Source: Enterobacter sp. R4-368
GTDB lineage: Bacteria; Pseudomonadota; Gammaproteobacteria; Enterobacterales; Enterobacteriaceae
NCBI RefSeq assembly: GCF_000410515.1
Contig: NC_021500.1
Coordinates: forward strand, 2,108,001-2,172,000
Direction: 5' to 3'
DNA: 64,000 nt
The translations under genes and the position numbers were made by a program. The notes beneath the pieces are model-generated. The model was not told the origin of the DNA, did not search any database, and saw only the letters and a program-made list of their open reading frames with translations. Position 1 is the stretch's first letter; every line of letters starts with the position of its first letter. Of the stretch, positions 25,010 to 29,714 are shown one piece after another.

Positions 25010-26029
25010 CTACCTGAAACCAATAGCCGCCATTGCTAACGTCGTGTCGAGCATTCGGTTAGCAAAGCCCCATTCGTTATCGCACCATACCAGGGTTTTA
25101 ATCAGGTGCGCGCCACTGACCCGTGTCTGCGTGCCATCAACAATGGCACTATGCGGATCGTGGTTAAAATCGGTTGAAACCAACGGTAATTCCGTATAGT
25201 CAACTATACCATGAAATGTTCCCTGCGCTGCTTTTTGCAGCAACGCATTGACTTCACTGGCTTTTACCGGTTTCTTCACCGTTACACTCAGATCGATAGC
25301 GGTGACATTAATTGTCGGCACACGTACCGCTATCGCTTCAAATCTGTCATTAAACTGCGGGAAAATTCTCGTGATGCCTGCCGCCAGTTTTGTATCCACC
25401 GGGATGATGGACTGACTGGCCGCGCGCGTACGCCGCAAATCGGGATGGTAGGCGTCAATCACTTGCTGGTCGTGCATCGCCGAGTGAATCGTTGTCACGG
25501 TTCCTGACTCAATGCCATACGCATCGTCGAGTAGTTTTATGACCGGAATAATACAGTTTGTCGTACAGGACGCGTTAGAAACCAGCAGATCGTCGGCTCG
25601 CAGCGTGTTTTGATTGACGCCGAAAACGATAGTTGCATCAAGGTCGTTGCTGCCAGGATGGGAGAAGAGCACTTTTTTTGCCCCCGCCGCCAGATGCGCC
25701 TCGCCATCTTCACGGTTGCCGTACACGCCTGTACAGTCGAGCACCACATCAACGCCTAACTCACGCCACGGCAGCGCATCGATAGCACGCTCATGCAGAA
25801 TGCGAATAACGTCATCGCCGACTATCAGTTGTTCACGCTCCTGGCGAACATCCCATGCGAAACGCCCATGGCTGGTGTCATATTTCAACAAATGCGCCAT
25901 GCCCACGGCATCGGCCAGTTCGTTGATTGCCACCACGGTGATTTCCGCCCGACGTCCGGATTCATATAAAGCACGAACCACATTGCGCCCGATGCGACCG
26001 AAACCATTAATCGCTATGCGTACGGTCAT
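25010..26029 (-). CDS. epd: D-erythrose-4-phosphate dehydrogenase
   Basis: Epd oxidises erythrose-4-phosphate to 4-phosphoerythronate, the first step of pyridoxal-5'-phosphate synthesis. It is a GAPDH paralogue of 339 residues. The NAD motif [13 protein letters not shown] is at residues 8-20, and the catalytic Cys155 is in [10 protein letters not shown]. Epd is told from GapA by the context (pgk and fbaA downstream) and by sequences such as [12 protein letters not shown] and [18 protein letters not shown]. It is the first gene of the operon, with a CRP-like site about 200 bases upstream. Tkt, also in this window, makes and uses erythrose-4-phosphate. Confidence 0.96.
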
Positions 26030-26221
26030 AACTCTCCTGCAAGGCTAGCCAGCCTGAAGTGGATGACAGAGTAATCCAGCAACCACAGAAGGGGAATCCT
26101 CGCCTGCTTAAACTGCGTCTGTTTGATTATTTGTCGAACATTTAGCCGACTGAAACGCTTCAGCTAGAATAAGCGAAACATGGAATAAAAGGAATGATTG
26201 TCCAGACGGTTTCGCCAGTAA

Positions 26222-26237
26222 TCTGACCTGCATCACA
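26222..26237. promoter_or_regulatory. CRP-like site upstream of epd
   Basis: TCTGACCTGCATCACA read on the minus strand is TGTGA-N6-TCAGA, one mismatch from the CRP core. It lies about 195-210 bases before the epd start. A CRP-dependent distal promoter is known for E. coli epd. The rest of the 353-base gap 26030-26382 shows no gene. Confidence 0.55.
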
Positions 26238-26382
26238 TTTTCACTGGAATAATTGGCGCGTCCGAAGGGCTTGTTGCTGAGGTTAAGAATTAATAGAAAG
26301 GGGAACAAGCGCAACAACGCATCCCTGCGTGATGTGTTGATAAAGGAAGATTGATCCCGGCAAAACGCTTTACTGGGGATGA

Positions 26383-27132
26383 TTAAAACCAGCTACGTTC
26401 CGCTATTTTTGGTTCGGTGCGCTCTGCACGCGGCATCTCAACCGGCAGCGAGGAGAGTTGTTTAGCCCACAGATCGGCTACCCATTTCACGCCCCTGGCG
26501 GTAAAACGCGCCTGAGACCAGCTACGTTTGTTTTCCCCTACGCCGCCGTGGACGGTAAAGTAGCCCGCATCGATATGGTACTGCGGCGGCATCAGCGCAC
26601 CGTCGACGCGCTGCATAATGTTGCGCTCAAGCAAAAAGCTCCGGAACAGAGACTCCTTCACCCGTAGCATCTTACAAAGCTGCCGGAAACCAAGCGACTC
26701 CTCAACCCTGACATACCGGTCAAAGAACTCCGCCTTTGGGGCAGAAACGGCAAGCAGCGCTTCCGCACGCTGGCGCTTTTCATACTGTTCGGCCCATGCG
26801 CGCGCCGCGGCTGCGGGATTAGTGAAATCGGGCAGGCTGATATCTTTTTCTTTCTCCTGCCAGCGATCGAGCATCTCTGCAGTAAAGCCTGGCGAGAGGC
26901 GCGAAACCGTCAGCAGTGAGTCCCGCTTATTGAGCAAAAACTCCTGTCGCATCTCACCTTCCCGCTCATACACATGTTCGTTCACCGGCTGGGAGAGTCG
27001 TTGCGCAGTCTCCAGGCTTTTCACCATCCGTTTCACTTCGGTGTGAGTCAGGCCTGTCAACTTCGCGATTTCGCGGCTGCTGACCGTCGCCAGAGCCTGT
27101 TGGGAATTGAAATTTTCACCAGGAATTACCAT
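26383..27132 (-). CDS. Orphan phage-type regulator: Rha-like N-domain plus KilAC antirepressor domain
   Basis: This 249-residue protein has the architecture of phage antirepressors. Residues ~14-95 look like the Rha family (VSSREIAKLTGLTHTEVKRM, then EFLLNKRDSLLTVSRL and the RWQEKE end); residues ~132-225 look like KilAC/ANT (EFFDRYV, QLCKMLRVKESLFRSFLLER, YFTVHGGV, FTARGVKWVADLW). A charged linker joins them. The ATG has an AAGGAG ribosome-binding site seven bases upstream. No other phage gene flanks it, and E. coli has yggC/D/F/P-cmtAB at this position. Its promoter carries a strong LexA-type box, so it is probably SOS-induced. A role in inducing or tuning resident prophages is my inference; a domesticated DNA-binding regulator is the alternative. 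Confidence 0.8.
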   Translation of the reverse strand: MVIPGENFNSQQALATVSSREIAKLTGLTHTEVKRMVKSLETAQRLSQPVNEHVYEREGEMRQEFLLNKRDSLLTVSRLSPGFTAEMLDRWQEKEKDISLPDFTNPAAAARAWAEQYEKRQRAEALLAVSAPKAEFFDRYVRVEESLGFRQLCKMLRVKESLFRSFLLERNIMQRVDGALMPPQYHIDAGYFTVHGGVGENKRSWSQARFTARGVKWVADLWAKQLSSLPVEMPRAERTEPKIAERSWF

Positions 27133-27177
27133 AGGTTCACTCCTTACACATACTCACCCTGGATAATCTGTAGAATT

Positions 27178-27206
27178 ATTATACGACTTACTGTACAAAT
27201 ATCCAG
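27178..27206 (-). promoter_or_regulatory. Promoter of the Rha/KilAC gene
   Basis: On the minus strand a perfect TATAAT -10 hexamer (27183-27178) is preceded 17 bases upstream by CTGGAT (27206-27201) in the -35 position, a weak -35. The expected start is near 27171, about 40 bases before the ATG. Confidence 0.65.
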
Positions 27207-27208
27207 TA
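27189..27208. promoter_or_regulatory. LexA (SOS) box overlapping the Rha/KilAC promoter
   Basis: TACTGTACAAATATCCAGTA matches 17 of 20 bases of the E. coli consensus TACTGTATATATATACAGTA. The CTGT and CAG half-site cores are intact, with CCAG in place of ACAG as in some E. coli SOS boxes such as recN and dinI. It covers the -35 region and spacer, so bound LexA would block the promoter. Confidence 0.8.
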
Positions 27209-27404
27209 TATTTTTTATGCACAAATCAACGGCGTAGAGGTTGTTCTGTAAAAAGAGGGCTAAAAATGGGAAGTAAACGGCTGGAGACGCTAACGCAGCG
27301 GTATGGCTGATTGAGGGGGATAGGGGTGGATAAAACTATGTTTAGCTGGCCTGCAAATCTGTGGCCTTGATAAAACCCAGGCACAATGGGAAATGGTGGT
27401 CATG

Positions 27405-27436
27405 CTGGCCCGGCAGGACTTGCGCCGCCGGGCCAG
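27405..27436. terminator. GC-rich hairpin after tktA
   Basis: CTGGCCCGGC and GCCGGGCCAG form a perfect ten-base stem over a 12-base loop, eight bases past the tktA stop. No T-run follows on the minus strand. The rest of 27133-27443, apart from the SOS promoter, holds nothing I recognise. Confidence 0.6.
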
Positions 27437-27443
27437 AGGATGA

Positions 27444-29435
27444 TTACAGCAGCGCTTTCGCTTTTTCTACAACATTGTCGACGGTGAAACCAAACTCCTC
27501 GAACAGCTGCTCTGCCGGGGCGGACTCACCAAAGGTGGTCATACCGACGATAGCGCCGTTCAGGCCGACATATTTGTACCAGAAGTCAGCAATACCGGCT
27601 TCAATCGCCACGCGAGCAGAGACCGCTTTCGGCAGTACGGACTCACGGTAAGCCGCATCCTGTTTGTCGAATGCGTCGGTGGACGGCATGGAAACCACGC
27701 GCGCTTTCACGCCTTCGGCAGAGAGTTTTTCCCATGCCGAGACAGCAAGCTCAACTTCTGAGCCGGTGGCAATCAGGATCAGCTGCGGCTGACCTGCGCA
27801 ATCTTTCAGTACGTACGCACCGCGGGAGATATCTGCCAGCTGCTGCGCGGTACGCTCCTGTTGCGCTAGGTTCTGGCGGGAGAGGATCAGCGCAGTTGGG
27901 CCGTCATGGCGCTCAACACCGTATTTCCACGCCACCGCAGATTCTACCTGGTCACACGGACGCCAAGTGCTGACGTTCGGAGTAACGCGCAGGGAAGCGA
28001 CCTGCTCTACCGGCTGGTGAGTCGGGCCGTCTTCGCCCAGACCAATCGAGTCGTGGGTGTAAACCAGCACCTGACGCTGTTTCATCAGCGCTGCCATACG
28101 CACCGCATTACGGGCATATTCAACGAACATCAGGAAGGTGGAGGTGTACGGCAGGAAACCGCCGTGCAGAGCGATACCGTTAGCAATCGCGGTCATGCCG
28201 AATTCGCGCACGCCGTAGTGAATGTAGTTACCGGCAGCGTCTTCGTTAATCGCTTTCGAACCGGACCAGAGAGTCAGGTTAGAAGGCGCCAGGTCAGCGG
28301 AACCGCCGAGGAATTCCGGCAGCAGCGGACCGAAGGCTTCGATAGCATTTTGAGAGGCTTTACGGCTGGCGATTTTCGCCGGATTGGCCTGCAGTTTTTC
28401 AACAAACGCCTGCGCTTTAGCATCGAAGTCAGACGGCAGCTCGCCCTTCATACGGCGGGTGAATTCAGCCGCTTCCTGCGGGAAGGCTTTCGCGTAAGCC
28501 GCGAACTTGTCGTTCCACGCCGCTTCTTTCGCCTTGCCAGCTTCTTTTGCATCCCACTGAGCATAGATTTCAGACGGGATTTCAAACGGTGCGTATTTCC
28601 AGCCAAGCTGCTCACGGGTCAGCGCGATTTCCGCATCGCCCAGCGGCGCACCGTGGGAGTCGTGGGTACCTGCTTTGTTCGGCGAACCGAAACCGATGAT
28701 AGTTTTGCACATCAACAGGGACGGTTTATCCGTCACGCTACGAGCTTCTTCAACGGCGCGTTTGATAGCATCCGCGTTGTGGCCGTCAATGCCGCGAACC
28801 ACGTGCCAGCCATAGGCTTCAAAGCGTTTCGCCGTATCATCGGTAAACCAACCTTCCACGTGACCGTCGATGGAGATGCCGTTGTCATCATAGAACGCCA
28901 CCAGTTTGCCCAGCTTCAGCGTACCGGCCAGCGAGCAGGCTTCGTGGGAGATGCCTTCCATCATGCAGCCGTCGCCCATAAAGGCGTAGGTGAAGTGGTC
29001 AACAATGTCATGCCCAGGACGGTTGAATTGCGCTGCGAGAGTTTTCTCCGCAATCGCCATACCTACCGCGTTGGCAATGCCCTGGCCCAGCGGACCGGTA
29101 GTGGTTTCAACACCTGCGGTGTAACCCACTTCCGGGTGACCTGGCGTTTTTGAGTGCAGCTGACGGAAGTTCTGCAGCTCAGACATCGGCAGATCATAGC
29201 CGGTGAGGTGCAGCAGGCTGTAAATCAGCATTGAGCCGTGGCCGTTAGACAGCACAAAGCGGTCACGGTCAGCCCAGGCCGGATTTGTCGGGTTATGGTT
29301 CAGAAAATCACGCCACAGCACTTCGGCGATATCGGCCATCCCCATCGGGGCTCCCGGGTGACCGGATTTGGCTTTCTGTACCGCGTCCATGCTCAGCGCA
29401 CGAATAGCATTAGCAAGCTCTTTACGTGAGGACAT
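27444..29435 (-). CDS. tktA: Transketolase A
   Basis: TktA moves two-carbon ketol units between sugar phosphates in the pentose phosphate pathway and makes erythrose-4-phosphate for aromatic and PLP synthesis. It is 663 residues, the E. coli length. The thiamine diphosphate motif [18 protein letters not shown], ending in the conserved Asn of [10 protein letters not shown], is in the N-terminal domain; the pyrimidine domain has the catalytic Glu in [11 protein letters not shown], and [16 protein letters not shown] follows. ATG 29435 ([14 protein letters not shown]) is the conserved start; the open frame continues 73 codons upstream without conservation. It diverges from loiP across 279 bases. 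Confidence 0.97.
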
Positions 29436-29714
29436 TTTGACTCCAGATCGGACTGTTAAGGGCTGTTCCCGTAACGACTTGACGACAGCGCGTTTTGGGC
29501 TACGCCGGAAAAAAGTGCCAACAATGTAACCTAAGCGACAAGTCATGTACATGGAGCATCCTTTTGCCGATTCAGAAATCTCTGGAAGCTGCTCGCATGT
29601 TGCGCAATCTCCTCGCCCGCCTTCTGTTCTGTTCCTTATACTTAGGCTCACCACCGGTTCGCCTGAATTGGTGTATGAACAGAATAGCTATCCAATCATT
29701 GCGGAAGAGAACAA

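Follow-up and report, generated by a model that had tools for sequence, protein, structure and literature searches.

A solitary phage-type regulator gene with a conserved LexA-type box in Enterobacter sp. R4-368 and other Enterobacterales

Antirepressors produced under the control of LexA are known (GfoA, GftA, Tum and AntC), some of which act on other prophages, as described in the part of PMC3121763 consulted here. The antirepressors named there are components of prophages, whereas the gene described in the present study is a solitary and conserved host gene that encodes a phage-type regulator and carries a damage-type promoter. It was identified between epd and tktA in a stretch of 64,000 nucleotides of Enterobacter sp. 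R4-368 (contig NC_021500.1, positions 2,108,001 to 2,172,000 of the forward strand; this whole stretch is hereafter referred to as the window and the gene as the orphan gene). With a probability of about 0.55, the orphan gene is read here as a long-resident, phage-derived regulator gene which has been kept by its host under LexA and encodes an SOS-induced DNA-binding regulator of two domains. No earlier description of this gene family was found in the open-access literature, a scope that leaves most subscription papers outside.

The first-pass annotation of the window had pointed to a 20-bp box that agrees with the LexA consensus at 17 of 20 positions and covers the -35 region and the spacer of a promoter with a TATAAT -10 hexamer. 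A scan of the window confirmed this description, as TACTGGATATTTGTACAGTA is the sole 20-mer within three mismatches of the LexA consensus in the entire 64 kb, and none of 100 shuffled sequences contained such a 20-mer. The underlying promoter (TGGATA, 16 bp, TATAAT; minus strand, 27205-27178) agrees at 10 of 12 positions and is the only sigma-70-like match in the interval 26000-27460; it is not significant alone, the shuffled sequences having on average 1.2 such matches, but its position is under the box.

Conservation of the box with the gene, proposed earlier as a check, was observed at every close homologue retrieved. In 86 of the 86 loci with at least 55% identity (62 distinct gene sequences), a box of the form CTGG...CAG is the best or tied best upstream match to LexA (the tie, with another 20-mer, is at L027), with consensus scores of 14-18 of 20. 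The box precedes the gene in none of the 12 loci (10 distinct genes) with homologues of 40-46% identity, where the best scores are 9-12; this set comprises six phage records and four paralogues in same-genus genomes (40-41% identity), a prophage setting having been inspected for L002 alone among the four. Ten of the 86 loci were obtained through the box pattern, but each of them duplicates a gene also retrieved by the protein search, and the 62 distinct genes are therefore unbiased by the pattern. Of the 40 genomes with a match, the best 30 supplied loci to the box test; the other ten have the weakest matches, one of them at 48% identity. Across 52 distinct promoter rows the box is asymmetric, with the 3' half-site being ACAG in 33 and CCAG in 19; the three positions of the A-tract core carry A in 50, 50 and 51 rows, and TATAAT or TATACT follows the box at a near-constant spacing in most of them. 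On the evidence of sequence, the orphan gene would be a member of the LexA regulon, carrying as it does a conserved LexA-type box over the predicted promoter.

The occurrence of the same box at other genes was examined within the source genome and within its genus. A search of the source genome with the box, allowing three mismatches, returned 46 matches as against 13 for the reversed control, a search that is partly circular since the pattern itself resembles the LexA consensus. Six of the ten other sites with at most two mismatches lie at recA, sulA, a umuD-type gene, cho, a DinI-like gene and dinB, while the remaining four (L037, L042, L043 and the alpha/beta-hydrolase gene L038) have no SOS-gene assignment. 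The informative part of this search is the CTGG forms at cho (TACTGGATAGGTAAACAGTA) and at the DinI-like gene (TACTGGCTTTTCATCCAGTA; DinI profile match of 37 bits, under the cut-off). The boxes at ruvA are CGCTGGATATCTATCCAGCA in E. coli and GGCTGGATATCTATCCAGCC in the source genome. An exact search for ACTGGATATNNNNMCAG in 14 same-genus genomes identified 34 sites as against three for the reversed control. Twelve of these precede the orphan gene, each of the 12 genomes with the gene contributing a single site (three were assigned by coordinates), and eight, in as many genomes, precede an nlhH-like esterase gene downstream of fdhE (L117, L104, L128, L107, L109, L122, L130 and L131); the others comprise one before dinI, four where a prophage methyltransferase gene begins, eight inside other genes and one uninspected site. 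In Salmonella, nlhH is an SOS gene, induced 15-fold and with a box 13 bp ahead of its ATG, according to the part of PMC8072944 consulted, and the esterase gene after fdhE is probably its orthologue. As the same core stands before ruvA, dinI, cho and the nlhH-like esterase gene, LexA is the likely reader of the CTGG box.

Two further observations were made on these boxes. The start of the prophage methyltransferase gene has a CTGT-type box in the source genome (L048:6890) and a CTGG-type box in L118, L121, L123 and L129, and these sites constitute a natural comparison of the two half-site variants. The alpha/beta-hydrolase gene of the source genome (L038; C2:391962-391981) is an SOS candidate, with TACTGTATATAAAAACAGTA, a strong LexA-type box, immediately 5' of its start.

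The first-pass annotation had described the gene as Rha/KilAC-like, and the profile searches gave a clear match to KilAC and a weaker one to Rha. The orphan protein matches the KilAC/ANT profile PF03374 at 4.2e-21 (75.7 bits against a cut-off of 25.3), while its match to Phage_pRha PF09669 (8.8e-6, 26.7 bits) falls under the cut-off of 29.9; precomputed Pfam data assign PF09669 to the 98% identical protein P0001 and to many, though not all, of the relatives. The best match among the phage profiles is PHROG 63, 'anti-repressor Ant' (3e-46), and close homologues are mostly labelled 'phage antirepressor KilAC domain-containing protein' or similar in the source databases. None of the PADLOC defence models matched the orphan protein at an E-value of 0.01. 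The source genome has one further KilAC gene, a 40% identical paralogue in a prophage-like stretch, which also encodes a phage-type repressor matching DicA (helix-turn-helix) and LexA (C-terminal part) and has open reading frames (ORFs) read as lysozyme-like, methyltransferase-like and integrase-like. Upstream of the KilAC paralogue, within L048:9951-11409, is the gene for a 112-residue protein whose similarity to LexA is confined to the N-terminal DNA-binding part.

The orphan gene is peculiar neither to its locus nor to its species and belongs to a family found in many genera of the Enterobacterales at about ten different sites. Matches at E-values of at most 1e-55 occur as single copies in 40 of the 295 family genomes and 20 of the 154 genera, one of the matches being only 48% identical. 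In a tree of 72 proteins, 53 close homologues form one clade (support 100/100), which is separated by 0.66 changes per site from the 19 other rows (seven from phages or prophages and 12 of unknown context, 43-47% identical). The midpoint-rooted tree of the named loci places Sodalis and Chimaeribacter first, Mixta and Pantoea next and then the Enterobacteriaceae, a branching that appears to follow the host families broadly, as judged by the family labels on the tree, and with L031 omitted owing to a stop in the match. That Pantoea persica match (L031) and the Leclercia adecarboxylata row with a long branch (L034) are possibly decaying copies. In E. coli, no copy of the gene was detected by megablast, which needs about 85% identity, in 5,426 genomes, and matches to the DNA from the gene to epd were limited to about 140 bp, in three genomes; the E. 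coli control genome contains a KilAC-domain match.

Thirty-three loci were resolved, on rough ORF calls, into ten neighbour contexts, each confined to one genus or to close genera, one of them being common to Leclercia, Silvania and Pseudenterobacter. A Pantoea agglomerans plasmid provides an additional context, and a toxin-antitoxin pair is located about 4 kb from the gene in one plasmid context; among plasmid records with a match, Pantoea figures in 94 of 211. Named neighbours elsewhere include an FDH-like dehydrogenase, a K+/H+ antiporter, a phosphoketolase, a chemotaxis receptor, regulators of the AraC, LysR and GntR types and VipA of the type VI secretion system. There was no phage gene among the named neighbours in two scans of ten proteins each (some in both, most of them named), and one neighbour protein (L016:6742-7512) had no match in either scan. 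The record CP060162 (L050), labelled as an Acinetobacter venetianus plasmid, holds a dehydrogenase gene, the orphan gene and carotenoid genes; as its replicon cluster is that of the Pantoea agglomerans plasmid, the species label may be wrong.

The orphan gene is under purifying selection. The ratio of non-synonymous to synonymous changes (dN/dS), from simple Nei-Gojobori counts, is 0.084 overall and 0.042 in the KilAC part over nine of the 13 same-genus sequences, the other four lacking the anchor motif; in eight strains the value for the orphan gene (0.080) is somewhat above those for seven neighbour genes (0.016-0.064). The region of the recognition helix and wing carries clade-specific residues (majority EVKRxIKSLETAQRL), in which the other rows differ.

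The solitary position between epd and tktA, reported earlier, holds, as the genes on both sides are bacterial. Seven flanking genes were examined, with epd, phosphoglycerate kinase, fba and mscS downstream and tktA, loiP and speA on the upstream side; the phosphoglycerate kinase match is under the cut-off of its model. The related claim that no phage genes lie around the orphan gene stands for these seven genes and for recombinases, the nearest PF00589 recombinase in the source genome being about 27.5 kb off (302 residues, probably XerC/D-like by its size) and the next about 227 kb off; capsid and terminase genes lay outside the search. With seven bacterial flanking genes and no PF00589 recombinase within 27 kb, the orphan gene is not encoded inside a prophage, as far as can be said from a search that did not cover capsid or terminase genes. 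The idea of a prophage remnant was likewise rejected on the seven bacterial neighbours, the distance of the recombinase and the purifying selection (dN/dS 0.08). The interval between epd and tktA, which in E. coli presumably holds yggC/D/F/P and cmtAB, looks like a site of gene turnover (26030-27443 in the window; L068 and L069), being empty in two of 15 same-genus genomes, where a spacer of 325 or 358 bp without the gene contains no ORF of more than 42 residues. The features of the locus are listed in Table 1.

Table 1. Features of the orphan-gene locus, in positions of the window
Feature	Position	Strand	Remarks
LexA-type box	27189..27208	-	TACTGGATATTTGTACAGTA
Predicted -35 hexamer	27200..27205	-	TGGATA, within the LexA-type box
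-10 hexamer	27178..27183	-	TATAAT, from sequence and sigma-70 scan
A-tract	27209..27218	-	immediately 5' of the box; possible UP element
Ribosome-binding site	27140-27145	-	AAGGAG, read from the sequence
Orphan Rha/KilAC-type regulator gene	26383-27132	-	ATG start, 249 residues (ORF list)
N-terminal domain, residues 14-95	26848..27093	-	predicted winged helix, Rha-like
Predicted secondary structure in N-terminal domain			helices 18-25 and 29-41; strands 50-56 and 59-66
C-terminal KilAC/ANT domain, residues 125-224	26461..26760	-	predicted MerR-like winged helix from about residue 144
tktA	27444..29654	-	upstream neighbour
epd	25010..26029	-	downstream neighbour

These observations suggest the following course of regulation. 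In the undamaged cell, LexA bound to the box over the -35 region and the spacer would keep the gene off or low; upon DNA damage, RecA would be activated and LexA cleaved, and the TGGATA-16-TATAAT promoter would fire. The product, in which a helical linker is predicted to join a winged helix of the Rha type to a KilAC winged-helix domain, would then bind specific DNA and alter transcription there as a second-tier SOS effector. Binding of LexA and induction in the SOS response are considered very likely, and binding of DNA by the orphan protein is probable. A target that stays fixed in the host is somewhat favoured over a changing collection of prophages because of the constraint on the protein and because the recognition region is common across genera. 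A more specific proposal is tentative, namely that an ancient domesticated phage regulator serves part of the Enterobacterales as a second-tier SOS transcription factor that is released by LexA on DNA damage, acts at a fixed set of chromosomal sites through two separate DNA-binding domains and has arrived, together with its SOS promoter, at about ten different chromosomal or megaplasmid positions.

The box itself provides a caution on LexA that counts against the preferred reading, as its 5' half-site is CTGG in 52 of 52 distinct promoter rows, whereas LexA prefers CTGT. Such constancy goes beyond the needs of LexA and, along with the asymmetry of the element, would suit an operator for the orphan protein itself, or for another regulator, that resembles a LexA box by chance. 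The idea of a self-operator, prompted by the constant CTGG, lost ground when the same core was found at ruvA, dinI and nlhH-like genes, and with small changes before cho. The invariant G is also part of the predicted -35 hexamer TGGATA, a position that would account for its constancy, and the prophage methyltransferase gene has the CTGT version in one genome and the CTGG version in others; an operator unrelated to LexA is thus very improbable.

The remaining alternatives accept the damage-type promoter and differ in what the protein would do. It might be a trans-acting antirepressor which, on DNA damage, removes the repressors of prophages elsewhere in the genome and couples the SOS response to their induction, as would be in line with its best profile matches to phage anti-repressor families, the LexA-controlled precedents introduced above and the presence of a repressor with a DicA-like helix-turn-helix and a LexA-like C-terminal part in the prophage-like stretch of the source genome. 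That repressor may, however, cleave itself by virtue of its LexA-type C-terminal part and so need no antirepressor. A LexA box is absent upstream of all six phage homologues, of which three follow cI in the early region and three are located elsewhere among phage genes. A protein that had to keep up with changing repressors would be expected to diversify, yet both domains are constrained. As GfoA, GftA and Tum are, in addition, shorter proteins (PMC3121763, part consulted), this role appears unlikely. A stable host target would account no less well than prophage induction for the clade-specific recognition-helix region and for the constraint on both predicted DNA-binding domains. A function triggered by the SOS response, directed against phages that enter or are induced or else limiting the growth of the damaged cell, would agree with a solitary, patchy, single-copy gene behind a damage-type promoter, and the phage Rha/Roi relatives disturb phage growth in IHF mutants. 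The absence of a PADLOC match argues against it, as do the nameable neighbours, which are housekeeping, metabolic, regulatory and secretion genes and not defence genes, though with the toxin-antitoxin pair in one plasmid context; such a function is therefore held to be improbable.

If control by LexA is true, the SOS regulon of many enteric bacteria, including that of Pantoea megaplasmids, gains a DNA-binding regulator that was not found in E. coli by DNA search. The system further permits a direct test of whether phage switches are recruited by bacteria for their own damage response or for the control of prophages.

A comparison with the described systems helps to place a long-resident regulator gene of this kind. 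The antirepressors of Gifsy, Fels, 186 and N15 are likewise phage-type regulators under LexA and made on DNA damage, control of the orphan gene being predicted; they are, however, prophage genes, with short products in the case of Gifsy and 186 (Tum, of 146 residues, is nearly twice the size of GfoA and GftA; PMC3121763, part consulted), whereas the orphan protein has 249 residues, is of the KilAC type and is encoded in single copy, alone among bacterial genes, across genera. KilA and Rha have no occurrence in the main text of PMC3121763, and the parallel therefore lies in the logic of control and not in protein membership. Rem, of the cryptic prophage Qin in E. coli K-12, is a prophage-derived antirepressor retained in the chromosome and altering host behaviour, but it was found through its homology to GfoA, is still within a cryptic prophage and has no known inducing condition in the part of PMC10448788 consulted, in whose main text KilAC and Rha do not occur. 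The phage Rha/KilAC proteins (PHROG 63) share the two-domain layout, and the six phage homologues are 40-46% identical to the orphan protein; these six have phage genes around them and lack a LexA box, while the orphan clade forms a separate branch with its own predicted N-terminal DNA-contact region. The host SOS genes ruvA, dinI, cho and the nlhH-like gene have an identical or near-identical CTGG-type box core, and differ in that their products are repair proteins, a modulator of RecA or an esterase and not a phage-type regulator.
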